NCBI RefSeq assembly: GCF_029626225.1
Contig: NZ_JARUBP010000001.1
Coordinates: 124,001-188,000 of the forward strand
Source: Asanoa sp. WMMD1127
GTDB lineage: Bacteria > Actinomycetota > Actinomycetes > Mycobacteriales > Micromonosporaceae
Direction: 5' to 3'
DNA length: 64,000 nt
Both the position numbers and the translations under genes were made by a program. The notes beneath the pieces are model-generated. The model was given only the letters and a program-made list of their open reading frames with translations. It was not told where the DNA came from and ran no database searches. Position 1 is the stretch's first letter. Each line of letters starts with the position of its first letter. Shown here one piece after another: positions 5,079-39,616 of this stretch.

Positions 5079-6362
5079 TCAGAGCTGTTCGAAGCAGGGC
5101 TTGTCGAGCGTGAACGCCTTGGCCGTCGGGCCTTCGAAGAGCGGCCGCACCGGCGTGACACCGGTCGGCGCCGTCGCGTCCACCTTGGAGATCTGCGTCT
5201 GCTTGAAGATGCCGCTGGGCCCACCGGCGTAGTTGCCGGCGCCCGTCGGCAGCATGCCCTCGTAGTCGACCGAGGAGAGCTGCTTGACCGCCGCCACCAC
5301 GCCGGCCCGGGTCAGGTCGCCGTTCGAGTTCGCCTTCTCCAGGGCGGCCTTGATCGGGTACGACCAGATCCAGCCGGACGTGTAGCCGTCGGACGGCGTC
5401 TTGCCCGGGAGCGCCTCGCGCATCGCCTTGTGACCCGGCGTGTCGCTGCCCCACGAACCCCACGGCCCGCTCTGCTCGTAGAGCGCGGTCAGCGCCGGAC
5501 CGGCCGGGCTCTGCAGCAGCGCCGGGTTCCAGGTCGGGCTCGTGCCGATGAACCGGCCCGTGAAGTTGCGGGCCGCCGCACCGCCGACCACCGCGGCCGC
5601 GTCGGCCGGGCCCATGGTCAGGATGACCACGTCCGGCTTCTGCTGCAGGATGGCGCCGATCGCGCCCGCCTGCTTGTCGGTGCCGGTGTCGGTCTGCACG
5701 GCGCTGAACTGGAAGCCGAGCTTCTCGGAGGCCAGCTTGGCGCCGGCCGCCGCGTCGTCGCCGTAGTCACCGGCCAGGTGCACCGCCATGACCTTCTTCG
5801 GCTTGTAGGTCTCGTTGGCGTAGTCCAGCGCGTTCATCGACTCGATGCAGTAGTTGGCGCCCGACTCGATGATCACGTCCTCGAACGCGTACGCCGAGGT
5901 CCACGCCGCCGGCGAGCCGACCACGTTGCTGGTCTTCATGTCCGGCAGGATCGCCGCGGTGGTCGGCGAGCCCAGCGTCTGCGCCAGGGCCAGGATGTTG
6001 GGCTTGATCTCCTGGTAGACCTGGTTGGTCACCTGCGGGTTGTATTTGTTGTCACGGACGTACTTGGTGACGTCGACCTCGTAGTCGCCGATGCCGCCGT
6101 TCTGGTTGACGCGCTTCCAGAACGCCTTCTGCGCATCGGTGATCGGCACCGCCAGCGCCCGGAACGGGCCCTCGGTCAGGTCGGAGATGATCCCGAGATA
6201 GATGCAGCCCTTGTCTTTGTTGACGGCTTCGGGGCACGGCTCCGCCGTGACACCGACGTCGGTCTTGACGCCGGACTCCCCGGTCTCCGCCTCGCCGCCT
6301 CGGCAACCGCCGAGCGCGACGGCGAGAAGGACGACCGCGGCACCGGATGCCAGTCGCTTCAT
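5079..6362 (-). CDS. Branched-chain-type ABC transporter substrate-binding lipoprotein
   Basis: A 427-residue Peripla_BP_6-type binding protein. A lipoprotein signal (LAVALGGC, lipidated Cys about residue 20) anchors it outside the membrane. The two-lobed fold follows, with motifs such as YLGIISDLTEGPF, NGGIGDYEVDV and VMAVHLAGDYGDDAAAGA. Last gene of a six-gene operon, 9 bp after the permease. I chose the ATG at 6362, which has AGAGG at proper distance, rather than the GTG six bases upstream. The family binds branched-chain amino acids, amides, urea or aromatic and aliphatic acids. The embedded acyl-CoA synthetase makes a carboxylic acid the better guess. Confidence 0.88.
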   Translation of the reverse strand: MKRLASGAAVVLLAVALGGCRGGEAETGESGVKTDVGVTAEPCPEAVNKDKGCIYLGIISDLTEGPFRALAVPITDAQKAFWKRVNQNGGIGDYEVDVTKYVRDNKYNPQVTNQVYQEIKPNILALAQTLGSPTTAAILPDMKTSNVVGSPAAWTSAYAFEDVIIESGANYCIESMNALDYANETYKPKKVMAVHLAGDYGDDAAAGAKLASEKLGFQFSAVQTDTGTDKQAGAIGAILQQKPDVVILTMGPADAAAVVGGAAARNFTGRFIGTSPTWNPALLQSPAGPALTALYEQSGPWGSWGSDTPGHKAMREALPGKTPSDGYTSGWIWSYPIKAALEKANSNGDLTRAGVVAAVKQLSSVDYEGMLPTGAGNYAGGPSGIFKQTQISKVDATAPTGVTPVRPLFEGPTAKAFTLDKPCFEQL

Positions 6363-6371
6363 GCGCACCTC

Positions 6372-7493
6372 TTAGTAGGAGAAGGGCCAGGACTTCCAGT
6401 AGTTGCGCGCGCGGACCCACAGGCCGAAGAGCCCGCGCGGTTCGAAAATCAGGAACACGATGATCAGGACGCCGTAGAGGATCGACTCGACCTGCAGCAC
6501 GTTGGGTACCTCGTTGGCGTCCGTGCTGATGAACGGGAGGAACGCCTGCAGCTCACGGATGATCCGGGGCAGCAGGGTGATGAAGAACGCCCCCGCGATC
6601 GCACCCGAGATGGTGCCGGCGCCGCCGATCAACACCATCGCGATGTATTGCACCGACAGCAGCAGGCTGAACGAGCTCGGGTCGATGAACCCGGTCACCG
6701 TGAACAGCAGCGCGCCCGCACAGCCGGCGTAGAAGGACGAGACCGCGAACGCGATCGTCTTGTAACGGGCCAGGTTGACGCCGATCACCCCGGCCGCGAT
6801 GTCGCGGTCGCGGATCGCCGTGAACGCCCGGCCCACCCGCGACCGGGCCAGGTTGCGGGCCGCGAGCGCGAACACCACCAGCAGGCCCGTCATCACCCAG
6901 AACAGCTTCTGGTCGCGGGTCGCGGAGGCCGTCGTGGTGGACAGCGAGTAACCGAAGACCTCCAGCGTCGGCGCGGGTCGCCCCACCCCGACGCCACCGG
7001 TCACTGTGGACCATTCGTTGAAGATGTGCTGGCCGATGAAGACCAGGCCGAGCGTGACGATCGCGAGGTAGAGACCGCGCAACCGGGTGGCCAGCGGCGC
7101 CACGACGACGCCGAAGAGACCCGCGACCAGCCCGGCGGCCGGCAGCCAGACGAGCATGTCGGTGACGCCCAGGCCGAGCGTCCGCCCGTCGGGGTCGCCG
7201 CTGATCACCGAAGCCGTGTAGGCGCCGATGCCCAGGAAGAACGCGTGCCCGAGCGACACCTGACCCGCGTACCCGGTGACGAGGCCCAGCCCGATCGCGC
7301 CGATCGCGGCGATGGCGCAGGTGGCCAGCAACTGCAGCTCGGCGTCGGCCAGCATGAAGGGCAGGACCGCGGTGACCGCGAGGAGCACGCCGAACGCGAC
7401 CTTGCGGGTGGTCGTCGGAAAGAGCCCCATCTCGCTGCCGTACGACGTGAACAGCAGCGGCCTTCCGCGCGGGGCCTTGGTGGCAACCGTCAT
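6372..7493 (-). CDS. LivM-type ABC permease
   Basis: A 373-residue permease with about ten hydrophobic segments. The family signature GYAGQVSLGHAFFLGIGAYT is at about residues 80-100, and the cytoplasmic coupling loop has AIRDRDIAAGVIGVNLARYK. It pairs with the LivH-type permease to form the channel of the importer. The start codon overlaps the stop of that gene (ATGA), so translation is coupled. A 50-residue N-terminal extension before the core is common in actinobacterial members. Confidence 0.92.
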   Translation of the reverse strand: MTVATKAPRGRPLLFTSYGSEMGLFPTTTRKVAFGVLLAVTAVLPFMLADAELQLLATCAIAAIGAIGLGLVTGYAGQVSLGHAFFLGIGAYTASVISGDPDGRTLGLGVTDMLVWLPAAGLVAGLFGVVVAPLATRLRGLYLAIVTLGLVFIGQHIFNEWSTVTGGVGVGRPAPTLEVFGYSLSTTTASATRDQKLFWVMTGLLVVFALAARNLARSRVGRAFTAIRDRDIAAGVIGVNLARYKTIAFAVSSFYAGCAGALLFTVTGFIDPSSFSLLLSVQYIAMVLIGGAGTISGAIAGAFFITLLPRIIRELQAFLPFISTDANEVPNVLQVESILYGVLIIVFLIFEPRGLFGLWVRARNYWKSWPFSY

Positions 7494-8374
7494 ACCCGTT
7501 CGACCTCCCGGGTGCCGAACAGCCCGTAGGGGCGGACGAGCAGGACCAGCAGCATCAGCACGTACGGCGTGATCACCGAGACGTTGCCGCCGAGCCAGGG
7601 CATGTTGTTCTGGTAGGTGGCGACGAGCTCCTGCGCGACGCCGACGCCCAGCCCGCCGAGCACGGCGCCGGGCAGCGAGTCGAGCCCGCCGAGGATGATC
7701 ACCGGCAGGGCGACCAGCGCCGTCAGCCAGAGCGTGCCGTCGAAGCTGCCACCCGCGGCCGCGAACGTGCCGCCGACCGCGGCCAGCGCGCCGGCCAGCG
7801 CCCAGCTCAGCGCGAACACCGCGCCGACCGAGACGCCCTGGGCCAGCGCCGCCTCCTGGTCGTCGGCGGCCGCCCGCATCGCCAGGCCCATCCGGCTGAA
7901 CCGGAAGAACGCGAACAGCGCGGTGACCAGCACGGCCGTGGCCAGGAAGGCCGCGATGTGCCGCTGCTGCACCTGCAACGAGCCGAGGTGCCAGCTGGCC
8001 AGGCCCCACGGGTCGTGCACCGTGCGCACGTCGAGGCCGATGAAGATGTTGACGACGACCCGGATGGCGACGTCGACGCCGAGCGTGATGATGGCGACGA
8101 CGAACGCCGGACGGCCCACCATCGGGCGCACCGCTCCGCGTTCGATGCCGAGCGCCAGCGTCGCCGTCAGCAGCGCGGCCAGCGGCAGCGCGACCCAGAA
8201 GCCGAGCGGGCCGGCCAGGTGGCTGACCAGCACGACGCCGGCGAGCATCAGGGCCGGCTGGGCGAAGCTGATCACCCGGGTCGCCTTGTAGATGATGACG
8301 AAGCCGAGCGCGAGCAGCGCGTAGACGCTCCCGGTCCCCAGCCCTCGCAGGACTCCTTCGAGAAACGCGGTCAT
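7490..8374 (-). CDS. LivH-type ABC permease
   Basis: A 294-residue permease with about eight membrane segments. The N-terminal family motif LRGLGTGSVYALLALGFVII is followed by a coupling loop with MRAAADDQEAALAQGVSV and by GGLDSLPGAVLGG. It forms the transmembrane heterodimer with the LivM-type partner. The ATG overlaps the stop of the acyl-CoA synthetase gene (ATGA), placing all six genes in one translationally coupled unit. Confidence 0.92.
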   Translation of the reverse strand: MTAFLEGVLRGLGTGSVYALLALGFVIIYKATRVISFAQPALMLAGVVLVSHLAGPLGFWVALPLAALLTATLALGIERGAVRPMVGRPAFVVAIITLGVDVAIRVVVNIFIGLDVRTVHDPWGLASWHLGSLQVQQRHIAAFLATAVLVTALFAFFRFSRMGLAMRAAADDQEAALAQGVSVGAVFALSWALAGALAAVGGTFAAAGGSFDGTLWLTALVALPVIILGGLDSLPGAVLGGLGVGVAQELVATYQNNMPWLGGNVSVITPYVLMLLVLLVRPYGLFGTREVERV

Positions 8375-26622: not shown

Positions 26623-27645
26623 GTGACGAGGATCGACGACGTGGCCCGGCTGGCGGGCGTCTCCACCGCCACCGTGTCCCGGGCGCTGCGCGGCCTGCCG
26701 ACGGTCTCGCAGACGACCCGGGAGCGGGTGCTGGAGGCGGCCGCCCAGCTGGGTTACATCGCCTCGCCCAGCGCCTCCCGGCTGGCCGGTGGCAAGACCC
26801 GGGCGGTGGCGGTGGTCGTACCCCGGATCACGCCGTGGTTCTTCAGCACCGTGGTGGAGGCCGCCGAGGAACGGCTGCACCGGTCCGGCTACGACCTGCT
26901 GCTGTTCAACCTCGGCGGCAGCGAGCACGCCCGGCAGCGCCTGCTCTACACGAGCACGCTGCACAAGCGGGTCGACGCGCTGATGCTGGTCGCGACGCCG
27001 CTGGCCGGGGCCGACTTCGCCGCGGTGGCCAAGCTGGCCCTGCCGGGCGTGACGGTCAGCGCGGGCACCCCGGTGCCCGGCTGGCCCAGCGTGCGGATCG
27101 ACGACCTGGAGACCGCCTGCACGGCCACCGACCATCTGATCTCGCTGGGGCACCGGCGCATCGCCCACATCTCCGGTGACTCCACCGACGAGCTGGCCAT
27201 CTCGACCCACCTGGACCGCCGGCTGGGCTACCAGCGGCGGATGCGGGCGCACGGCATCGAACCCGACCCGGCCCTCGACGTCGAGGCGACGTTCACCATC
27301 GCCGGGGGCGGTCGGGCCACCGCCGAGCTCCTCCGCCGGGGCGAGCCGCCCACGGCGATCTTCGCCGCGTCAGACGAGATGGCGATGGGCGCGATCGCGG
27401 CGCTGCGCTCGGCCGGCCTGCGGGTGCCCGACGACGTCAGCGTGATCGGGGTCGACGACCACGACGTCTCAGGTGTGGTCGGGCTCACCACGGTGGCCCA
27501 GCCGGCGGCCGCACAGGGCCGGATCGCCGCGGAAACCCTGCTCGGGCCGCTGCGCGGCACGGACAGCGGCTATGGTGACCGGTCCGTGGTGCTGCCCACC
27601 CGGCTGGTCGTCCGTGATTCGACGGCGCCACCGCGGGCACACTAG
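26623..27645 (+). CDS. LacI family transcriptional repressor of the agl operon
   Basis: A 340-residue regulator. The N-terminal helix-turn-helix (about 3-50) has VARLAGVSTATVSRALRGLP, a hinge with PSASRLAGGKTRAVAVVV follows, and a periplasmic-binding-like effector domain ends with DDVSVIGVDDHDVSG. GTG start with GAGG upstream. It sits between permeases and the glucosidase, so it most likely controls the operon through the TGCAAGCGCTTGCA palindrome at 22966. Confidence 0.93.
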   Translation: MTRIDDVARLAGVSTATVSRALRGLPTVSQTTRERVLEAAAQLGYIASPSASRLAGGKTRAVAVVVPRITPWFFSTVVEAAEERLHRSGYDLLLFNLGGSEHARQRLLYTSTLHKRVDALMLVATPLAGADFAAVAKLALPGVTVSAGTPVPGWPSVRIDDLETACTATDHLISLGHRRIAHISGDSTDELAISTHLDRRLGYQRRMRAHGIEPDPALDVEATFTIAGGGRATAELLRRGEPPTAIFAASDEMAMGAIAALRSAGLRVPDDVSVIGVDDHDVSGVVGLTTVAQPAAAQGRIAAETLLGPLRGTDSGYGDRSVVLPTRLVVRDSTAPPRAH

Positions 27646-27677
27646 GACTTTTGCCGGCACGAGCTTTGGAGCACCCC

Positions 27678-29288
<1,611 letters not shown>

Positions 29289-29291
29289 CCT

Positions 29292-29330
29292 GTGGCGGCG
29301 CCGGCGGCCTCCACCGCCGGCGCCGGCCAC
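29292..29330. terminator. Terminator between glucosidase and MFS genes
   Basis: GGCGCCGGCGG (29297-29307) pairs with CCGCCGGCGCC (29314-29324), extended by GTGGC/GCCAC across one bulge (29292-29296 with 29326-29330). It lies 4 bp past the glucosidase stop and is convergent with the MFS gene. Confidence 0.8.
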
Positions 29331-29474
29331 GGCCTCAACCCAACCGCGGCGCCGGCGCAGTGGTTCTGCTCTGAGCGTGACCCGGCGCGAAGGCGGCAGC
29401 GGAGCGAAGCGGAGCGGTCCCTGGCGGGAGCTTCGGTCGCGCCCCGGACGAACCCGAGTCAACAGGCTCTTGAT

Positions 29475-30914
29475 CTAGTGATGCGTGTGGTCGGGAGCGT
29501 CGTTGGTCGGCGTCCTGGCCGTCTCCTGCGCGCGTTTCTCCAGCAGTTGGTGCAGGCCGCGGATGTCGCGGGGTGAGGTGCGGGAGGCCAGCCAGTACAT
29601 GATCCCGGTGGGGATGAAGAAGAGCTGGAACGCGGCCAGGCCGATCGAGTAGTTCAGCGGGGACGGGTATTTCGAGGCGAGTACCGCGAACGCGACCGGG
29701 ATCAGGCCGTTGCCGGCCGCGCGGCCGACGCCGTTGGTGAGGTTGCCGAGGCTGTAGACGGTGCCGCGGTACTCCGGCGGGTTGATGTCGGCGATCAGGG
29801 CGAACCAGTTCGGCGAGTTGGCCGACGTGAACGCCAGCGCGACGATCGCGACCAGCAGCGTGAGCCCGACCGTCGGCTCGGTCACGACGCTGGCCAGGGC
29901 GGCGGCGAACACGGCGCCGGTGCCGGCGTCGGCGGGCACGTCGATGCGGAACGGCAGGAAGAACAGCACGAGATAGAGCGGCACGGCGGCCAGGATGCCG
30001 ACGGAGGCGACCAGGGCGCGGCCGCGCAGAGTGCGGCGTTGGAGCTTGTCGCCGAGCAGGCCGCCGAGGATCGACAGGGCGCCGCCGAGCTGGAACAGGG
30101 TCGCGAACACGCTGCCGACGACGACCGCGGTGCTGGCCGAGTAGCCCTGGTCGATCGCCCGCTCGCGGAACAGCACCGGCAGCCAGACGAGCGAGCCGAA
30201 CGCGATCTGGGCCGGCAGTCCCTGGAGCACCAGCCAGACGTTCGTGCGCCGCTGCGTGATGGCGGGCAGGCTCTTGAGGCTGATCCGGTAGTCGTACTCG
30301 TGGCCCTCGGCGATGGCCCCCGCGAGCTCCGGGTCGCTCTGGCCGCGCCGGATGTCGTAGGTGAAGAAGTAGGCGACCGTGGCGACCACGCCGACGACGC
30401 TGAGCACGAGGAACGGGCGGCGCCAGTCGGCCGCGCCGAGTACGCCGCCGAGCAGCGTGCCGAGGAACGTGCCGACGCCCTGCGACAGGCCCCACAGGCT
30501 CATCACCAGTCCCCGGCGTTTCGGCTTGATCAGGTCGCTGACCACGGAGAAGCCGACCGAGCTGACCGCGCCGAGGCCGACCGCGGCGGCGATCTGGGAC
30601 ACGAAGAACAGGAGGTACGTGCCGGCCACCGCGCTGCCGGTCATGCCGGCCGCCCAGAGCAGCGTGCCGATCATCAGCAGCGGCTTGCGGTTGCCCCGGT
30701 CGCCGTAATAGGCCCAGGCCACCGAGGCGACGGCGCTGACGAGGAACGACGTCGCGGTCACGGTGCCGATCAGCCCCTGGGCGACGTCGTACGAGTCGGC
30801 GATCGAGCCGTAGAGCGGCGGCACCAGGCCGACCGCGACGTTGTCGAGCGACGCCAGGACGATGAACACCACGACGCTGTAGATCCGGTGGAACCGGCCG
30901 CCGGTGGTGGTCAT
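29475..30914 (-). CDS. MFS transporter
   Basis: A 479-residue major facilitator with twelve predicted membrane segments. The loop 2-3 motif reads AYYGDRGNRKPLLMIG, matching the G-x-x-x-D-R-x-G-R-R signature in modified form. A middle cytoplasmic loop has EGHEYDYRISLKSLP. The C-terminal tail ends in His-rich DHTHH. Substrate cannot be assigned; it could be a drug, sugar or organic ion carrier. Divergent from nothing; the LysR-like regulator gene ends 35 bp upstream on the same strand. Confidence 0.88.
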   Translation of the reverse strand: MTTTGGRFHRIYSVVVFIVLASLDNVAVGLVPPLYGSIADSYDVAQGLIGTVTATSFLVSAVASVAWAYYGDRGNRKPLLMIGTLLWAAGMTGSAVAGTYLLFFVSQIAAAVGLGAVSSVGFSVVSDLIKPKRRGLVMSLWGLSQGVGTFLGTLLGGVLGAADWRRPFLVLSVVGVVATVAYFFTYDIRRGQSDPELAGAIAEGHEYDYRISLKSLPAITQRRTNVWLVLQGLPAQIAFGSLVWLPVLFRERAIDQGYSASTAVVVGSVFATLFQLGGALSILGGLLGDKLQRRTLRGRALVASVGILAAVPLYLVLFFLPFRIDVPADAGTGAVFAAALASVVTEPTVGLTLLVAIVALAFTSANSPNWFALIADINPPEYRGTVYSLGNLTNGVGRAAGNGLIPVAFAVLASKYPSPLNYSIGLAAFQLFFIPTGIMYWLASRTSPRDIRGLHQLLEKRAQETARTPTNDAPDHTHH

Positions 30915-30949
30915 GCCGGGAGGCTACATCGGCCGCGGGCCCCGGCGAT

Positions 30950-32023
30950 CTAGGTGCGCTGGGTCGGGATGGGTGTGGCGGATGGGAGCCGCGCGCCCGA
31001 GATGCGGTGCGCGCCGCGCTCGAGCGCGCGCACGCCGGCCCGCAGCGCCTCGATCACCGGACGCAGGGCCGCCTGGTGGGCGTCGCGGACGGTCACGCAG
31101 GTCTCCAGGCGCAGCGGCACCGTCCCCGCGTCGATCGGCACCCAGCGGAACCGGTCGGCGTCGCCACCGCCGAACACCATGCCCTCCTTGTAGGGCAGGG
31201 CGACGTCGGACGGCACGACCAGGACGCGCGCGCGTTCCCGCCCGCCTTGGCGGTGGCGGTGCCGCTCGCTGCGGAGCCTGATCACGCTGGTCGCGGTCTC
31301 GTAGGTCTCCATCGCGACGCGGGCGGCCGGGTCCGGGTCGGGGATGCCGGCCGCGGTGATCGCGTCTTCGAGCACGCGGCGGGCGCGCACGTCGCGCGGC
31401 TGGAGAAAGGCCGCATAGTCCCGGACGAGATCGGCGAGCGGCAGCCGGTCGTACGGGTAGTCGCGGTCGATCATCGCCTCGAGCCGGGCCTCGTAGAGCA
31501 GCGTGCTGCGCAGGCCGGGCCGGCGCACCGGGGGGCCGATGATCAGGTGGAACTCGTTGCGCAGGAGGCGGTCGACGGGGTCGCCGAAGAACTGGTGCTC
31601 GGCCCGGTTGTGCTGCGAGAGGTATTCGACGCGGATCTTGTCGCTTTCTTCGGCCGCGCGGAGCTGCTGCTCGGCGAGCGCGATGAACTGGGTGTGGTGG
31701 GGTCCGCAGGCCAGCGTCCAGACGGTCGGCTCGGCCGCGGCGGCGCCGATCCGCTCGTGCAGAGCGACGACCTGGCGGGCGATCTGCAGCACCCGCTCCC
31801 CCGCCGGCGTCAGCAGGTAGCGGCGGTCGACGTTGCGGCGCACCAGCGGCTCGCCGACGTAGCTCTCGACCTTGGAGATCCGGTGCTGCACGGATTGGCG
31901 GCTGTAACCGCCGTGGAGATCGGCCATCCGGCGGGCCGCGTCCTCATAGGAACGCTCTTCGGCGAGCGCGATGAACGCCCGGAAGTCCCACTCATCCAGT
32001 GGTTTCGGGCGCTGTTTTGACAC
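30950..32023 (-). CDS. LysR-like regulator A of a duplicated module
   Basis: A 357-residue regulator. The N-terminal LysR-type helix-turn-helix covers about 10-75 (FIALAEERSYEDAARRM, then YSRQSVQHRISKVES). The effector half (about 95-330) is divergent from standard LysR effector domains, with PTVWTLACGPHHTQF, FGDPVDRLLRNEFHLIIGPP, LADLV and DVALPYKEGM as landmarks. It is clearly paralogous to the regulator at 33012. It diverges from a small helical protein gene. GTG start. Probably acts on the shared intergenic block at 32024-32380. Function of target unknown. Confidence 0.85.
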   Translation of the reverse strand: MSKQRPKPLDEWDFRAFIALAEERSYEDAARRMADLHGGYSRQSVQHRISKVESYVGEPLVRRNVDRRYLLTPAGERVLQIARQVVALHERIGAAAAEPTVWTLACGPHHTQFIALAEQQLRAAEESDKIRVEYLSQHNRAEHQFFGDPVDRLLRNEFHLIIGPPVRRPGLRSTLLYEARLEAMIDRDYPYDRLPLADLVRDYAAFLQPRDVRARRVLEDAITAAGIPDPDPAARVAMETYETATSVIRLRSERHRHRQGGRERARVLVVPSDVALPYKEGMVFGGGDADRFRWVPIDAGTVPLRLETCVTVRDAHQAALRPVIEALRAGVRALERGAHRISGARLPSATPIPTQRT

Positions 32024-32380
32024 TCGCTCAACGTAACGTGACCGGGCTGGCTCCAGAAGTGTCGCATTGACGATATCGAGTGCGCCCGGCCGTCTCCGGG
32101 TGGGCCGTCACGCAGAGAAACCGCTCTCCACCAAACTGTGAGCTGGATCACTTTTGGTTTGTCTTCTGTTATGGACTTGTCTGGATTTATCGCCTGGAGA
32201 GCCACGTTACGTTCCGTCGCGCATTACCCAGCGCGAATCTACTGCAAGCGCACGTTGCAGTTGCTCAAGGACCGGCCGCTCGCGGACGTCATCACGATGG
32301 CGCGAGAGGAGTAGAAAGACAGAACGGCTGCGCCGCCGGGGTTGGCAGCGGCCGTCTGCCCAACCGCCAAGGGAGCCGCC
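32024..32380. promoter_or_regulatory. Divergent control region of module A
   Basis: Non-coding, 357 bp. ACGTAACGT (32032-32040, 9 bp from the regulator start) and ACGTTACGTTCCGT (32204-32217) form an inverted pair. AAGTGTCGCATTGAC (32058-32072), GATTTATC just upstream of ACGTTACG, and GCGCGAATCT after it recur in the module B region. A hairpin with arms about 32324-32331 and 32345-32355 precedes the small gene. Likely promoter/operator plus leader of both genes. Confidence 0.6.
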
Positions 32381-32704
32381 ATGCCCAGCCGGAACCCTCC
32401 CCTCCTCCTCCGCCGCTGGCGCCGCGCCCTGCGCACCCCAGCCTCACACACCGACGGCCCGGGCAACGCACAGCCGGTGCGGCCGGCGCCGCACCTGGAC
32501 AGCGCGGTCACGGAGGTACACGCGGCCCGGGTGGCGATGCGCAACGCCCTGCTCGCCCTCGACCAAGCCTTGGACGACGGCGAACGGATGGACGCGAGCT
32601 TCCGCCGCGTCATCCACGCGGAGATCAGCGGCACGCGCGAAGAAGCCGCCCTCCTCACCGCCCGCCTGGCCACAACACGCGAAAGGTCTCCAGCGGTGCG
32701 CTGA
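32381..32704 (+). CDS. Small helical protein A of the duplicated module
   Basis: A 107-residue basic protein. Residues about 39-100 form the conserved part: LDSAVTEVHAARVAMRNALL, then ALDQALDDGERMD, FRRVIHAEISGTREEAALLT. Predicted mostly helical, with no membrane segment or known domain. The first 38 residues are an Arg/Pro-rich extension absent from the paralogue at 34904. ATG with GGGAG five bases upstream. Its divergent LysR-like neighbour suggests direct regulation. I do not recognise the family; a role as protein partner or small regulator is inference. Confidence 0.65.
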   Translation: MPSRNPPLLLRRWRRALRTPASHTDGPGNAQPVRPAPHLDSAVTEVHAARVAMRNALLALDQALDDGERMDASFRRVIHAEISGTREEAALLTARLATTRERSPAVR

Positions 32705-32769
32705 GGCCCGCGGCGTCCGCCTAGGGGTCTCCGGCCGCCCGCACTGTCGGGCCACTGACTCCTGCGGCG

Positions 32770-32933
32770 CAGTGACGCCCGCAGCATCCGTCCGCGGTTT
32801 TCGGCCGGCGCGCTCACGCCTGCAGCCTCCGACCCCGGCCTCCGGCCGGCGCGCTCACGCCTGCACCATCGGGCCGCGGCCTGCCGCGGGCACAGTGACG
32901 CCTGCAGCATGCGGCCGCGGTCTTCGGCGGCGT
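32770..32933. repeat. Four tandem copies of a 41-bp repeat
   Basis: Units 32770-32810, 32811-32851, 32852-32892 and 32893-32933 are exactly 41 bp each. They share the frame C-x-C/G-T-C/G-ACGCCTGCA near the start and a GGCCGCGG-like centre. A more degenerate unit precedes the first. They occupy most of the 307 bp between small gene A and regulator B (32705-33011), with no other gene seen there. Copies are contiguous without spacers, so not a CRISPR array. Confidence 0.85.
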
Positions 32934-33011
32934 TGCCGCGCAGCGTTGGCTGCGCTCGTGCGTCTGGTCGGTCCGGGTCAGCGCGGCCAGGTCAGGCCGG
33001 CTGGTCCGGAG

Positions 33012-34088
33012 TCAGTCGCTTCGGGACGGACGCTGGACAGGGAGCGCCTTGGTCGGCGAGGCCACCGGTCCGCCCGAGATCGGATGGCGGGCGGCCTCCA
33101 GCCGCGCCACCCCGAAACGCAACGCCTCGATCACCGGACGCAAGACGTTGGCATCGTCCTTCCGGATGGTCACGTACGTCGGCAACCGAAGGGCTCCGGT
33201 GGCGTCATGGACCGGAACCCAGCGGAACCGGTCCGCGCCGCTGCCGCCAAATTCCATGCCGTCCTTGAATGGCTGAGCCACATCCGACGGGAGGACCATG
33301 ACGCGGTCGCGGCCGCCGCGGCGGGGACGCTCCGTGCGCAGGCGCATGACGCTGGCGCCGGCCTCGGTGGTCTCCATCGCGATGCGGACGCTGCCGGGAT
33401 CGACCACCTCCGACCGCCGGATCGCCTCCTCGAGCATCCGGCGGGCGCGGATGTCCTGCGGCTGCAGAAGCGCCTCGTAGCGGGTGACCAGATCCGCGAG
33501 TTGAAGTTCGGCGGCGCGATAACGGCGGTCGATCATGACCTCCAGCTGAGCCTGGTAGAGCTCGATCGAGCGAAGCGCCGGGTTCGCCACGCTGGGGCCG
33601 ATGATCAGCCGGAGTTCCTTGCGCAGGAGCCGATCGACAGGCTCCCCCTGGAACTGGTGTTCCCCGCGATCTGTCCGCTCGAGGTATTCGACCTGGATCT
33701 TGTCGTCGCCGCCGTTCCGTTCGCGGAGCCAGTCGGCCGCGAGCGTGACGAACTGGGTGTGGTGCGGCGCGCAGGCCAGCGTCCACACCGTGGGCTGGAC
33801 CGTGGAAGAGCCGATGCGCTCGTAGAGCGCGACGACCTGCCGCGCGGCGACCAGAAACTCCTCGCCCGCCGCGGTCAGCGAATAGCTGCCGTTGGCCTTG
33901 CGCTGCAACAGCGTCTGATTGACCCAGCTTTGCACCTTGCGGATGGCCCGCCCGACGGATTGGCGACTGTAGGTGTCGCGCGCTTCGGTCAATTGCCGCG
34001 CGGCCGCGTCGTAGGTGCGGTTTTCGGCGACCGCAATGAACACCCGGAACTCCCAATAGGTGGGTTTCTCCCGGTGCATTTCAGCCAC
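33012..34088 (-). CDS. LysR-like regulator B of a duplicated module
   Basis: A 358-residue paralogue of the regulator at 30950. Shared landmarks include the N-terminal helix-turn-helix (FIAVAENRTYDAAARQL, then YSRQSVGRAIRKVQS), PTVWTLACAPHHTQF, EHQF-G-PVDRLLRKELRLIIG, LQPQDIRARRMLEEAI and VLPSDVAQPFKDGMEFGG. The two proteins align over their whole length without large gaps. It diverges from a membrane-protein gene and a small helical protein gene. Start taken at the ATG near 34088 (MAEMHREK); the second Met is an alternative. Confidence 0.85.
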   Translation of the reverse strand: MAEMHREKPTYWEFRVFIAVAENRTYDAAARQLTEARDTYSRQSVGRAIRKVQSWVNQTLLQRKANGSYSLTAAGEEFLVAARQVVALYERIGSSTVQPTVWTLACAPHHTQFVTLAADWLRERNGGDDKIQVEYLERTDRGEHQFQGEPVDRLLRKELRLIIGPSVANPALRSIELYQAQLEVMIDRRYRAAELQLADLVTRYEALLQPQDIRARRMLEEAIRRSEVVDPGSVRIAMETTEAGASVMRLRTERPRRGGRDRVMVLPSDVAQPFKDGMEFGGSGADRFRWVPVHDATGALRLPTYVTIRKDDANVLRPVIEALRFGVARLEAARHPISGGPVASPTKALPVQRPSRSD

Positions 34089-34469
34089 GCGACCAACCTA
34101 TCGTAATTGATTGGTTACGTAAAGTGTCGCCATGACAGTACGGGTCGGTCACATCCCGGAGCGTGATTACTGCCTGTCATTGTCACGCTCAGAGAACGTG
34201 CCGCAGCCAATAAAGTCGAGTCGCGTGCAAACGTCCCCGCAGATGGCCTGATTTATCAGGTTTTAAGGGTAGCAAAAGGTGCAGACTTCTACGTTACGTT
34301 CCGTAAGAGCTACCGAGCGCGAATCTTGTGAAAGCGGGCGTTGCGCGCGCTCAGATAACGGAACGTCATAACGACCGTGAAGGTCACCGATTGGCGGTAC
34401 AAATGCAAGGCGGCTGCTCCGCTTCCACCGGAGCAGCCGCCACACGTCCCGACTGGTTGGAGTCAAAAC
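34089..34469. promoter_or_regulatory. Divergent control region of module B
   Basis: Non-coding, 381 bp, less GC-rich than its flanks. ACGTTACGTTCCGT recurs at 34291-34304, followed by GAGCGCGAATCT as in module A. AAGTGTCGCCATGAC is at 34122-34136. ACGGAACGT (34358-34366) mirrors ACGTTCCGT. A 12-bp hairpin (GGCGGCTGCTCC, 34409-34420, with 34430-34441) precedes the membrane gene's ribosome site, in the same relative position as the module A hairpin. CCTGATTTATCAGG (34247-34260) is an additional palindrome. Confidence 0.6.
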
Positions 34470-34907
34470 GTGCTTGTCCCACACCGTACGCCAGAGCACT
34501 GGCATTTACCCACCCCCTTCTCCACCGCCGACGGTGGGCCGATCAGCCTGCGTCTTCCTCGGCCGAACCTCTATTGGCTCGTCTTCGTCGTCGGCTGGAT
34601 CAACGTGGCGGAAGCCGCGCTCACCGCGCTCGAAATGCAGCATCACACACTGGTGAGGATCGCAGCGCACAGCGTGTCCGTCGTGCTGGCGACCATCTCG
34701 ACCTGGGGCGTCAACCGTGTCGCGGATCCCGGGCGTTTCGCCCGCAGCGGCACCATCATCGCCGCCTTGCCGGCCCTGTACCTGCCGGCGCACCCCGGGC
34801 CGCTGCTGGAACCGACGCTCTTCGTCGGAGGCGCCATCCTGCTCACCGCAGCCGGCGAGATCGGCTACCGGCTGAGCAAGGAGTGCGGCTGCGGAGCGCG
34901 GTCGTGA
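34470..34907 (+). CDS. Small four-helix membrane protein of module B
   Basis: A 145-residue protein with four hydrophobic segments (about 34-54, 61-82, 94-110, 115-133) and a Cys-containing basic end (KECGCGARS). No known family. I chose the GTG at 34470 because GGAG lies seven bases before it and because a strong leader hairpin (34409-34441) falls just upstream; a longer frame to 34377 would run through that hairpin. Its stop overlaps the start of small gene B (GTGA), so the two are translationally coupled. No counterpart exists in module A. Confidence 0.65.
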   Translation: MLVPHRTPEHWHLPTPFSTADGGPISLRLPRPNLYWLVFVVGWINVAEAALTALEMQHHTLVRIAAHSVSVVLATISTWGVNRVADPGRFARSGTIIAALPALYLPAHPGPLLEPTLFVGGAILLTAAGEIGYRLSKECGCGARS

Positions 34908-35194
34908 GCGGCGGTTACCTGGACATCGCCGTCTCCGAGGTGCACGCAGCCCGCAACGCGCTGCGCGATGCGCTGATCGCCCTCTACGACGCTGTCGGAT
35001 CCGGCGAATCGCTGGACCCGACGAGCCGGCGGGTCATCTACAGCGAGCTCGCGGGTGCGCGGGAGGAGGCCGCCGTTCTGGTCGCCCTGCTCGCCGACGC
35101 CGGCCGCGGGGCACCGCGGCCGCAACCGCTCCGGCCGTCGGCGGATGACCCCGGCACGCGCCGCGCCGCAACCGCCTGGGCCGTCGGCGGATGA
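34904..35194 (+). CDS. Small helical protein B of the duplicated module
   Basis: A 96-residue protein paralogous to the one at 32381. The shared block runs LDIAVSEVHAARNALRDALI, ALYDAVGSGESLD, RRVIYSELAGAREEAAVLVA. Predicted helical, soluble, unknown family. Here it lacks the N-terminal extension of paralogue A and starts at a GTG overlapping the membrane gene stop. The last 30 residues are a Pro/Arg/Ala tail encoded by imperfect repeats that continue past the stop to about 35250. Confidence 0.65.
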   Translation: MSGGYLDIAVSEVHAARNALRDALIALYDAVGSGESLDPTSRRVIYSELAGAREEAAVLVALLADAGRGAPRPQPLRPSADDPGTRRAATAWAVGG

Positions 35195-35269
35195 GCCCGG
35201 CGCCGCGACCGCTCCAATCACCGGCAGACGATCCCGGCACGGTTGGAGCGCCGGCGAACGTCCAGGTCG

Positions 35270-38200
35270 TCAGGCGGCCCGGACGGGCGCCAGGCCCAGT
35301 TCCTCCGCCCGCGCCCAGACCGTTTCCATCGCCCGGTCCGGGTCGCGGTGGAAGAGGCTGGCCCGCAGGCGCACGAAGACGCAGTTGCCGACGCGTTCCA
35401 GGACCGCCTGCCGGCGCAGTTCCGCCGCGAAGGCGGCCGCGCCCCGATAACGGTCGTCGCAGGCGATCGCCAGCCGGCGTCCGTCGGGAGCGTTGACCAC
35501 GAAGTCGATCTGGTAAGCCCCGAGCCGGAACCGCGGAATCGGCCGCAACCCCGCCGCGGTCAGCCGCCGCCACACCTCGCGGGTGAACTCCGTGTCCAAC
35601 TCGCGCCCGTCGGCCGGTTCCGGCGCCGCCGTCGGCCGGGTGGCGTACGACAGCAGCAACCCCCGCGCGTCGTCCGGGTTCAGCTCGCCCGCGCTCACCG
35701 AGTGGAAGAGGAACAGCTGGTCCCGGGCCCGGGAGGCGGCCACATTGACCCGCCGGTGGTAGTCGCGCTTCGTGAACGCGCCGATTCCGCCGTCGGCGGT
35801 GGCCACCACCGTCGACACCAGCACCACGTCGCGTTCGTCGCCCTGGAACGTGTAGGGGTCGCCGACCCGCAACGACCGCCGCTCGAGTTCGTCGGTGCCC
35901 AGCTCGGCCCGGAGCCGGTGCTGCAGGTAGTCGGCCTGCCCGCTGGTCGAGAGCAGGCTGACCACGCCGATCGTCCTGCCGCGGTAGGCCGGGTCCGCGA
36001 CGATCTCGGTCACCTTGGCCACCAGCGCCTCGGCCTCGGCGACGTTGACCTCGCCGTGCTCCGGCACCGCCACCCGCCGACCGTCCGGGACGTGGATCGG
36101 CACGACGGCGGCGCCCAGCCCGGCCGGCCGGTCGGCGCGCAGCGGCTGGATCTTGCCGTCGTAGTAGGTCTCGCTGGAGAACGCGATGATCGCCGGCACG
36201 CTGCGGAAGTGCTCGGTCAGCAGGATCCGCTGCGGCGAGCGGCGCACCGCGTGGTCGTAGAGGCTGCTCTCGGTGTCGAAGTGCACGGCCGAGGGCACGC
36301 CGGCCGGGGTCAGGTGGGCGCCGATCAGCGCGTTGACCCGGTCGGCGGGCAGGCCGACGAGCTGCGGGCCGATCTGCTGGTCGTCGCCGACCACGACCGC
36401 GCGGTGCGCGAGCCCGAGCACCGGCAGCGCGAAGATGTCGGCCTGCGACGCCTCGTCGACCACGACGACGTCGAACAGCGGCCCGGCGCCGGGGAACTGC
36501 TCGAGGGCACGATCAACCGACATGATCCACACGGGTACGGCGGTCGCCGCCTCGGCCATCGCCCGTTGCGCGGCGGCCTGCCAGTGTGCCGCGGTCTTGC
36601 CCGTCCCCTTGCCGATCTTGCGGAGCGCGGCGGCCCAGTCGGCGAGGGCGGCCTTGCGCCGGTCGTCGAGGGTACGGGCGACCTCCAGCCACGCCGACCC
36701 GACGACCAGCTCGCCGGTCAGCCGGCGCTCCTGGTCACGGGCCCGCTCGAGGCGCCGGCCGAGCTCGTCGTCGCCGACCCCGTCCGCGCCGGTGACCGCG
36801 TCGAACCAGGTCTGCGCCTGCCGCCAGGTCCAACCCCGCAGGGCCGCCTCGCCACTCTCGGGCGCCTCGCCCCGGTCGTAGCGGGCCGCCCAGCGCGGCG
36901 CCACCCCGGCCAGGCGGGCGTGCAGGGCGGCGTACCGCGTGGCATCCGGTTTGATGCTCCACAGTCGACGGATCTCGGCCAGCGCGCCGTTCCAGGCCAG
37001 GGCGTCCTCGGCCGACCAGGCGGCGGCCAGCGCCCGCAGCACGGGCGGCGCGCCGGGCGCCGCCGTGGCGTGGGCCAGCCACCGGGTCATGGCGTCGTGC
37101 TCGGCCTCGATCCGGTCGACGGTGAACACGGCCGCCGCGGCCTCGGTCAGGTCGGCCAGGTCGGCCAGCGTGGGCGGGTCGACGGCGCGGGGGCAGGCGG
37201 GCACGAGCACGGTGAGGTTGGCGCGGAGGGCGGGCCAGCGGCGGCTGTCCCAGTCGAGCGCGTCGAGGGCCTCGGCGAGCAGCCGCCCGGCCCACAGCTC
37301 CGGCTCGACCGCGGCCGGACCGCCGGCGACGGCACCGCCGCCGACCGCACCACCGCCAACCGCACCACCGCCGACCACACCGGGGTATCCCGCGGTCCCG
37401 CCGGGCATCGGCGCGTCCAGCCGGACGCACCACTCCGCCCAGCGGGCGGCGAGCTGGGCGCGCAGCTGTTCGCGCTCGACGGTGGCCACCAGCAGGTCGA
37501 CGTCGTCGGTCGTGCGGGGCTGCTCGCCGTCGACGCGGCAGTCGGCGACGACCTTGGCCAGGTCGCCGTGGGTCAGGCGACGCACCGGCTTGCCGGCCGC
37601 GAAGCGCTCGCGGACCTGAGTGAGGTGCGCCAGCAGGCGGCGCGGCTGGGCGGCGTGCTCGGCGCCGATCTCCACACGGTGCCCCGACAGCGCGGCCGTG
37701 CGCCGGCCGAGCTCGGTCAGCAGCCGCTGGCTGGCCGCCACCTGCTCGTCCCAGACCGCCTGCCAGCTCGGCTCGCGGATGAGCTGGCCGAGCCGGTCGG
37801 TCCAGCTGCCGGCCCGCCGGGCCAGCGTCTCGGCTGCCGCCCGCAGCGCCGCGCCCAGCTCGTCGACCCCGGTCGGGCCCAGGCGGCGGGCCCCGTCGGC
37901 GTCGACGCCGCGGTCGCGGGCCTGGTCGAGCACCTTGCCGGCGTCGGCCAGCGCGGTCCGCTGCGCGGCCACCGCCTCACCCGTCGGCAGCTGCCCGTCG
38001 GCCGGCAGGTCGGCCAGGGCGTGCGCCCGGTCGGCCGGCGACAGCGTCCGCGCCAGGTCGCCGAGCAGCCCGAACTCGGCCGCGGTGAGCGGCGCCGGGG
38101 TGCCCGGCGGCACCGGGTCGGGCACGATCCCGTCGGCCTCGGTGCGGCGTAGCCACTCGCCGACCTCGGCCGGGGACGAGGGCACACCGCGGATCGGGTA

Positions 38201-39616
38201 CGTCGTCGCCTCGCGCTCGGCCACCGCCAGCAGCTCGTCGCGGGCCGCGGTGAACCGGCCCTGCGCGCCGTCGATCTCGGCGGTGATCCGGGCCAGCTCC
38301 TCCGCCGCCGCGGAACGGTCGAGCGTGGCGGCCCGGTCGGACAGCTCGCGGGCGGCGATCTGGAGCTGCACGAGCTGGTCCGCCGAGCGGCCGAGCACCG
38401 CCAGGCAGAGTGGCTGGATTTCGGCCGGCAGCCCGTCGCGGAGCACCCGCAGCGGGTCCTCCTTCTGCGCGAGCACCAGCACGCGCTTGCCGTGGGCGAC
38501 CAGATGGCAGATCAGGTTGCGGATGGTGTGCGTCTTGCCGGTGCCGGGCGGGCCTTGCACGGCCACGGTGCGGTGGGCGGCCAGCCGGGCGGCGATCGAC
38601 TCCTGGGCCTCGTTGGTCGCCATCGGCATGAGCAGGCGCTCGCCCGTACGAGTCCAGGCGTCGGGGTCGTCGTCGGGCATCACCAGCGCGCTCGGCTCGT
38701 GCGCGAGGATGCCGGCCAGCGCGCCGACGCCCGCGGCGCCCGAGCCGGCCAGCCGGTCGCGCTCGGCCTCGAGGAACCGGCGGACCATCCGCTGCCGGGG
38801 ACGCAGGAACAGCACACCGGTGTCGTGCACGTGCGGCTCGTCGAGCGGGTCGGTGCCGTACCGCAGCCGGGGTTCGAAGCCCAGCCGGCGCAGCGCGCGG
38901 GAGGCGAACTCCTGCCGCTCGGCGGCGTCCCACGGGTCGACGTCGACCAGACCGCCCGGGCCGGCCAGGTCGAGCAGGTCGCCGACCCGGCGGTTGTCGA
39001 GCCCGCCCAGCGCGTCGACCTGCAGCCGGGCCGGACCCTGCGGATGCACGGTGACCGTGGTGGTCTCGGGGTCGTAGTCGATCGCGACCGGCGTCGCCAG
39101 CAGCGGGTAGCGGACGGACTCCCCACCGAGCGGCGCGTCGAGGACGGCGTGGCCCCAGACGAGCTCGACCCGGGCCGAGTCGACGTCGACGCGGTAGCGC
39201 AGGTCGTAGAGGCGGTCGTGCAGGGCGCGGGCATCCGCGGCGCGGCGGTGGGCGACCGACCACGGCCGCCACTGTTCGTCCAGCCAGCGGGTGAACGCCG
39301 CCGCGCGCTGCTCGTCGTCGCCCTGCAACGTCGGTGGCCGGTCGGGCGTCAGGTCCCAGACCAGGTGGCGGAGCAACGGGGTCGGTATCGACGGCGGGGG
39401 CGGCGGCGCGGGGCGGCCGACCCGCAGCCAGCCGGCGCCGGGTTGCCGCGGGCCGAGCTCGACCGCCGGATGGGCCGGCAGGTCGTCGTGCCAGAACGCG
39501 TCGCCGGTGGGCACCGCGCGGACCGGCTTGTCGAGCAGGGCCCGCACGGCGAGCAGGTACTCCGCGAGCGCTACGGCGCGCGCGCGGATCTCATGTGGCG
39601 TGTCGGCCTGCTCCAT
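35270..39616 (-). CDS. SF1 helicase with C-terminal Vsr-like nuclease domain
   Basis: A 1448-residue protein. Regions in order: an N-terminal domain (about 1-330); split SF1 (AAA_11/AAA_12, Upf1-like) helicase with Walker A GPPGTGKT at 355-362, a long helical insertion (about 430-1030), Walker B FDVVVVDEASQADIF, DDQQIGPQ, the LTEHFRSVPAIIAF motif and the GDERDVVLVSTVV region; then a C-terminal domain (about 1340-1448) of the MTES_1575/Vsr-like endonuclease fold. There Asp1371 (YQIDFVV) is kept, but the usual IECDG motif reads IACDD (1384-1388), so the catalytic Glu is Ala. Similar architectures occur in defence-associated helicases. A stretch of GGGAV repeats lies within the insertion. Single gene. 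Confidence 0.85.
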   Translation of the reverse strand: MEQADTPHEIRARAVALAEYLLAVRALLDKPVRAVPTGDAFWHDDLPAHPAVELGPRQPGAGWLRVGRPAPPPPPSIPTPLLRHLVWDLTPDRPPTLQGDDEQRAAAFTRWLDEQWRPWSVAHRRAADARALHDRLYDLRYRVDVDSARVELVWGHAVLDAPLGGESVRYPLLATPVAIDYDPETTTVTVHPQGPARLQVDALGGLDNRRVGDLLDLAGPGGLVDVDPWDAAERQEFASRALRRLGFEPRLRYGTDPLDEPHVHDTGVLFLRPRQRMVRRFLEAERDRLAGSGAAGVGALAGILAHEPSALVMPDDDPDAWTRTGERLLMPMATNEAQESIAARLAAHRTVAVQGPPGTGKTHTIRNLICHLVAHGKRVLVLAQKEDPLRVLRDGLPAEIQPLCLAVLGRSADQLVQLQIAARELSDRAATLDRSAAAEELARITAEIDGAQGRFTAARDELLAVAEREATTYPIRGVPSSPAEVGEWLRRTEADGIVPDPVPPGTPAPLTAAEFGLLGDLARTLSPADRAHALADLPADGQLPTGEAVAAQRTALADAGKVLDQARDRGVDADGARRLGPTGVDELGAALRAAAETLARRAGSWTDRLGQLIREPSWQAVWDEQVAASQRLLTELGRRTAALSGHRVEIGAEHAAQPRRLLAHLTQVRERFAAGKPVRRLTHGDLAKVVADCRVDGEQPRTTDDVDLLVATVEREQLRAQLAARWAEWCVRLDAPMPGGTAGYPGVVGGGAVGGGAVGGGAVAGGPAAVEPELWAGRLLAEALDALDWDSRRWPALRANLTVLVPACPRAVDPPTLADLADLTEAAAAVFTVDRIEAEHDAMTRWLAHATAAPGAPPVLRALAAAWSAEDALAWNGALAEIRRLWSIKPDATRYAALHARLAGVAPRWAARYDRGEAPESGEAALRGWTWRQAQTWFDAVTGADGVGDDELGRRLERARDQERRLTGELVVGSAWLEVARTLDDRRKAALADWAAALRKIGKGTGKTAAHWQAAAQRAMAEAATAVPVWIMSVDRALEQFPGAGPLFDVVVVDEASQADIFALPVLGLAHRAVVVGDDQQIGPQLVGLPADRVNALIGAHLTPAGVPSAVHFDTESSLYDHAVRRSPQRILLTEHFRSVPAIIAFSSETYYDGKIQPLRADRPAGLGAAVVPIHVPDGRRVAVPEHGEVNVAEAEALVAKVTEIVADPAYRGRTIGVVSLLSTSGQADYLQHRLRAELGTDELERRSLRVGDPYTFQGDERDVVLVSTVVATADGGIGAFTKRDYHRRVNVAASRARDQLFLFHSVSAGELNPDDARGLLLSYATRPTAAPEPADGRELDTEFTREVWRRLTAAGLRPIPRFRLGAYQIDFVVNAPDGRRLAIACDDRYRGAAAFAAELRRQAVLERVGNCVFVRLRASLFHRDPDRAMETVWARAEELGLAPVRAA
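37333..37377. repeat. Three 15-bp tandem repeats inside the helicase gene
   Basis: Units GCACCGCCGCCGACC, GCACCACCGCCAACC and GCACCACCGCCGACC follow one another without gap and encode VGGGA-type pentapeptides on the minus strand. They form a flexible linker in the helicase insertion and are likely length-variable between strains. Confidence 0.85.

Follow-up and report, generated by a model that had tools for sequence, protein, structure and literature searches.

LysR-type transcriptional regulators (LTTRs) such as CbnR, BenM, OxyR and PltR are built from an N-terminal HTH_1 domain, a linker helix and an effector-binding fold, and they are mostly described as acting on a single divergent operon (PMC3382589). 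Strong stem-loops that stabilise mRNA from the 5′ terminus are the subject of studies of the ompA and papA leaders listed among the references of PMC3997798. Here we describe a tandemly duplicated locus that may bring these features together, found in a 64,000-nucleotide stretch of DNA from Asanoa sp. WMMD1127 (‘the window’ below; positions 124001–188000 of contig 1 of a genome of about 8 Mb). Two LysR-type regulators, R1 and R2 (collectively R), each lie divergently from a gene for a small helical protein (S), which in the second copy is preceded by a gene for a small membrane protein (M). In the structural model R has the same three-part build as the LTTRs named above, and R loci share the divergent layout with LTTRs that have one divergent target; copy 1 also has a dyad ahead of its presumed transcription start. 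They differ in that the effector half of R is too divergent for naming by Pfam, a strict T-N11-A box was not found at R loci, and the facing genes belong to undescribed families. As in ompA and papA, a strong stem-loop would open the transcript; the transcription start is here only presumed. The module is real, small, conserved and LysR-linked. Both of its small-protein families are undescribed, and its leader hairpin stays paired as the sequence changes; as a circuit it is of a known kind. A limited literature search together with the family libraries, the sole basis for this statement, gave no published account of it.

The account that we favour, with a probability of about 0.6, is that ligand-bound R activates the facing M–S promoter, that the transcript has a stem-loop leader, and that R–M–S underwent duplication in an ancestor common to the genus. 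R, through a ligand-binding effector domain, would bind the DNA between itself and the genes opposite and, once loaded with ligand, activate a promoter driving a tiny operon of M and then S, with S made by translational coupling at a GTGA overlap. The transcript would begin at or just before the stem-loop, putting the hairpin at its 5′ end, where it would most likely stabilise the mRNA or tune translation of the first gene. S would be a cytosolic two-helix hairpin, and M and S may serve a single membrane-linked task. After the duplication, copy 1 would have lost M and copy 2 kept M and S. The module ties two undescribed small-protein families, and a leader hairpin whose arms have changed yet still pair, to a regulator with a putative ligand that is open to search. 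The features concerned are as follows (aa, amino acids; TM, transmembrane).

30950..32023, minus strand: R1, LysR-type regulator of copy 1, 357 aa (HTH_1 at 3.2e-9; predicted full-length LysR fold)
32325..32355, plus strand: copy-1 leader stem-loop, eroded in this genome (pairing comparison, shuffles)
32381..32704, plus strand: S1, small helical protein of 107 aa, extended at its N terminus by an Arg-rich stretch (whole-genome search, dN/dS, model)
33012..34088, minus strand: R2, LysR-type regulator of copy 2, 358 aa (HTH_1 at 1.6e-8)
34409..34441, plus strand: copy-2 leader stem-loop, 13 bp stem and 7 nt loop (pairing comparison, shuffles)
34470..34907, plus strand: M2, small membrane protein of 145 aa with a probable 3–4 TM helices (relatives, hydropathy, start by alignment)
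34904..35194, plus strand: S2, small helical protein, 96 aa, overlapping M2 as GTGA (whole-genome search, dN/dS)

A first-pass annotation of this DNA had named R1, R2, S1 and S2, and all four were confirmed in place, with the regulators (minus strand) pointing away from the small genes (plus strand) in both copies. Its full-length alignment of the regulators also holds (56% identity over 354 columns, E = 1.7e-125), and both exceed the 26.6-bit cut-off of PF00126, the N-terminal LysR winged helix-turn-helix, with 37.0 bits for R1 and 34.8 for R2. The C-terminal half, which had been called unrecognised, is predicted from the model to be an ordinary LysR effector-binding domain, so that nothing in R itself suggests a novel type of switch. 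The ligand-binding domain of AdmX, a regulator of antibiotic biosynthesis (7qek), is 12% identical to R with a Z score tied with many LTTR domains, so that no common ligand is implied. R is under purifying selection (NG86 dN/dS of 0.18–0.30 for R1 over 15 pairs from six genomes, and 0.26 for R2 from a single pair). Within the genus set (six Asanoa genomes, the source included) R1 is present in six and R2 in two, and relatives of R1 stand at 83–85% in four Asanoa species. The wider sets comprised 354 genomes of the family (44 genera for R), 226 of the class and an even sample of 396 of the phylum; family and phylum counts of R, S and M are lower bounds, only part of the first-look candidates having been scored. 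R occurs in at least 15 of the 354 family genomes and six of the 44 genera (19 rows), and among the phylum genomes in the source alone (1/396). A tblastn search for R2 in plasmids gave no match at E 1e-10, and in a PHROGs scan of R1, S1, S2 and M2 a single phage family, its function unknown, was hit by residues 14–108 of R1 (6.7e-7).

The kinship of S1 and S2, first noticed from a shared block of residues, is borne out by a whole-genome search (49% identity, E = 1.9e-15), in which two weak rows (E = 0.05 and 0.88) were the only others. At least 8/354 family genomes, the source included, have S (10 rows), and dN/dS is 0.21–0.54 for S1 (15 pairs, six genomes) and 0.32 for S2 (single pair); the first-pass annotation had allowed that the small frames might lack homologues or purifying selection, and they have both, with dN/dS below 0.6. 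These results leave very little room for the alternative that the small genes are spurious frames lying by chance next to a pair of paralogous regulators. Spurious frames are indeed common in GC-rich DNA, and 48 frames of at least 80 aa overlap 27000–39000, but S is also supported by the gene finder, a Shine–Dalgarno-like GGAG is conserved before S1, and M2 and S2 meet at a GTGA junction. The gene finder puts the start of S2 earlier, at 34883. Foldseek with the S model gave eight matches (best E 2.9, highest probability 0.07), all weak, for which reason no known fold is claimed; S2 matched one PHROGs family at 0.035 only, and the S family is undescribed. Weak S matches in three further genomes (G096, G003 and G045; E = 1.6e-4 to 9.9e-4) were set aside as unsupported by S profiles (best E 0.094 with one, no row with the other). 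S1 proteins carry LLRRWRR, an Arg-rich, Trp-containing N-terminal stretch (32381–32500), which is absent from S2 and from the S proteins of loci L048 and L049.

The first-pass annotation overlooked M2, which sits between R2 and S2. Its start at 34470 is backed by the gene finder and by alignment with the ATG of A. hainanensis, in which the longer M frame is interrupted by a stop. Hydropathy windows exceed the threshold three times in five single M proteins and twice in the M part of the locus L050 relative, and M is probably a membrane protein of 3–4 helices. Pfam gave no match for M2, nor NCBIfam for the longer frame from 34377, and none of six M proteins scanned reached the cut-off of any Pfam family, small multidrug-resistance exporters included. 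Those exporters, which have four TM helices of dual topology, resemble M in being a few-helix unit used singly or as a fused tandem pair; unlike them, M has no family match. The M family is undescribed. It occurs in at least 12/354 family genomes (13 rows), and among the class genomes in the source plus one weak row (E = 5.2e-4); a tblastn search for M2 in phages gave no match at E 0.01, and dN/dS for M2 is 0.37 (single pair). An S domain fused to the M tail at L050, suspected by eye, was rejected when the S profile gave nothing at E 1.

Layouts were tallied at 18 R loci, a nineteenth R row (L058, E = 4.9e-45) being left out. Six face S alone, all of them copy 1 of the genus, and three face M and then S. 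L048 faces S behind a remnant of M, identified by its E value (0.0025), position and GTGA junction. Fused tandem M–M genes face R at five loci and a single M at two (one long-tailed), and one locus (L057) faces neither family. At 17/18 loci the neighbour is thus a divergent M- or S-family gene, which we infer to be the target of R; the first partner (the remnant in L048) starts 139–400 bp from R. R1 and S1 occur together in 6/6 genus genomes, and R2, M2 and S2 in 2/6. The proposal that R and the small gene were duplicated together and are functionally linked is supported, since all 10 S genes found among the 354 genomes are divergent from an R; the further proposal that the R–S pair is the basic unit is not, with 10/18 R loci facing an M-type gene and 8/18 lacking S. 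It had also been considered that R might mostly occur without S, and S is present in 8/15 R genomes, a bare majority. Three M rows lie away from R (genomes G058, G279 and G161), and that of G279 shows no adjoining R. The natural deletions at these loci (M lost and S kept; M doubled and S absent) are ready contrasts for the role of each part.

The same tally bears on what M and S might do. S is without an intact M at seven loci and M without S at seven; together with the retention of S in four genus genomes where no M was found, this is why no obligate M–S complex is claimed. It also counts against a toxin–antitoxin-like or immunity pair under LysR control, a very improbable reading that would fit two tiny overlapping genes, one of them for a membrane protein, and their patchy occurrence (R in 15/354 genomes). 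The families of Pfam, NCBIfam and PADLOC lend it no support: a PADLOC scan of R1, S1, S2 and M2 gave no model at E 0.01, and the match of the L050 M relative to Imm52 (E = 0.0086) is sub-cut-off, at 16.1 bits against 25. A protein modulator of R is an unlikely role for S, though better placed: S would be a helical partner, made by R, that binds R in feedback, with M as anchor or sensor where present. R accompanies S at 10/10 loci, and purifying selection maintains S1 in four genus genomes where a search at E 1e-4 gave no M, but the 8/18 R loci without S mean that R does not need S.

The fused M–M loci (L051–L054 and L056) share their flanks, with small GTPase/roadblock-like genes on one side and lactate-utilisation-like genes and a GntR-like regulator on the other (all named by eye). 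In stretch L100, the XRE-type M locus, M (7833–8339) faces a 470-residue HTH_31 regulator (5761–7173) and has a strong leader hairpin. A distant M-like protein (L101:6584–7090; E = 2.5e-7) has a 15-bp stem 73 nt upstream and faces a 601-residue protein.

Stem-loops precede the first gene at most R loci with S or a single M. Eight leaders have a perfect stem of 12–14 bp and a loop of 6–7 nt, ending 28–38 nt before the start, and the copy-1 stem-loop is kept in the five other genus genomes, in two with a G-U pair. A stem of at least 12 pairs (G-U allowed) ending 20–45 nt before the start is found in 10/12 R-linked S or single-M leaders and at 6/335 other starts, namely those of the other genes of the same loci as called by the gene finder; with Watson–Crick pairs only, the counts are 8/12 and 2/335. 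In a loop-anchored count of 11 leaders 135/140 cells pair and 12/13 positions show more than one pair type (125/130 and 10/13 without G058, whose register is arbitrary). These leaders were chosen because they fold, and weight is therefore placed on the sequence change rather than on the percentage of pairing. Against shuffled sequences z was –2.7 to –5.4 in ten leaders with a stem and –3.7 in G058, and Rfam gave no match at E 1 over 30900–35300.

The leader dyad that forms this stem might instead be a DNA operator over the transcription start, for R or another repressor, and not an RNA element, a possibility that we doubt but take seriously. A classical site for operator dyads is +1, and a changing DNA site would also alter both arms symmetrically. 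In two relatives, however, the mRNA strand pairs one position as U-G alone, so that DNA symmetry is lost there, and a strong hairpin near the start is likewise seen in the M leader at the XRE-type regulator (z –3.7); operators are seldom as long as 12–14 bp. A more elaborate alternative, and a quite unlikely one, is that M–S is a new membrane module gated both by a LysR sensor and by its own leader RNA. The leader RNA, preceding M also at the unrelated XRE-type regulator, may belong to the M–S module; S, found only with R, may report M or membrane state back to R; and an Arg-rich N-terminal helix, gained by S on the loss of M, could place S at the membrane alone.

The favoured account also includes the duplication. 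The DNA upstream of the two copies is related (56 bp at 80% identity, E = 4e-8), and the related leader continues into M2 in copy 2 and directly into S1 in copy 1, a layout to be expected if a deletion had removed M. In the tree of R proteins, those of the genus, eight in all, form one clade (100/100) in which R1 (100/100) and R2 (100/99) are sister clades, which suggests that the duplication came before the genus genomes diverged; long branches outside the genus clade are unsure. Copy 2 looks to have been lost in four genus genomes after the ancestral duplication, and alternatively may have been gained by transfer. Since S is kept in the four genomes where no M was found, S works without M.

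Candidate control elements in the two divergent regions are listed below, with roles that are putative.

32030..32039, minus strand: ACGTTACGTT word just upstream of R1, over the presumed R1 promoter
32204..32217, plus strand: first exact ACGTTACGTTCCGT word, in the region of the S1 promoter; may be an operator or an upstream promoter element
32243..32259, plus strand: TGCAA-N7-TTGCA dyad, candidate LysR box (genus leader comparison)
32312..32317, plus strand: TAGAAA, presumed S1 –10 element
34291..34304, plus strand: second exact ACGTTACGTTCCGT word, in the M2 promoter region
34398..34403, plus strand: TACAAA, presumed M2–S2 –10 element

The two exact copies of ACGTTACGTTCCGT, one per divergent region, are the only ones in the genome. 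Because the copies of the locus are homologous, the shared word speaks for conservation and gives no sign of a wider site set, and it does not show binding; it could also contain a promoter –10 (TACGTT). One site with one mismatch exists elsewhere (control 0), and a wider set of such sites was rejected, the 3 kb around that site holding one called gene, which lies away from it. The dyad is perfect in 5/6 genus copy-1 leaders, in two of which the outer T and A are replaced by C and G in both arms together. Its centre is some 73 bp ahead of the presumed start, itself placed directly after the –10-like word; this word is TAGAAA or TACAAA in all eight genus leaders, with no obvious –35.

Several observations weigh against the account of an R-activated promoter with a stem-loop leader. 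The R of L057 has no partner, and in G058 M adjoins an XRE-type regulator, so that M is not bound to R alone. The 12 R-linked leaders represent about four lineages only; the copy-1 stem-loop of the window itself is eroded (z 0.2), that of L048 is gone (z 0.6), and none precedes the five fused M–M genes (z –0.8 to 1.3). The 14-base ACGTTACGTTCCGT word has 4–6 mismatches at 10 R loci outside the genus, where L048 retains TTACGTTCTGT of it. The TGCAA-N7-TTGCA dyad departs from a strict T-N11-A box, and neither copy 2 nor the loci beyond the genus showed a recognisable counterpart.

Downstream of S2, on the minus strand (35270–39616), lies a gene for a large helicase-like protein that combines AAA domains with an MTES_1575 nuclease domain at the C terminus; its best PADLOC match is PDC-S37 (1e-42), followed by Mokosh and Hhe models, which makes it a candidate defence protein. 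It is found near R1 in 6/6 genus genomes, and a tie to R was rejected: among 16 stretches, only those of the five other genus genomes have it close to R. Between S1 and R2 (32775–32932) a GC-rich unit of 41 bp is repeated about 3.9 times, with 76% matches.
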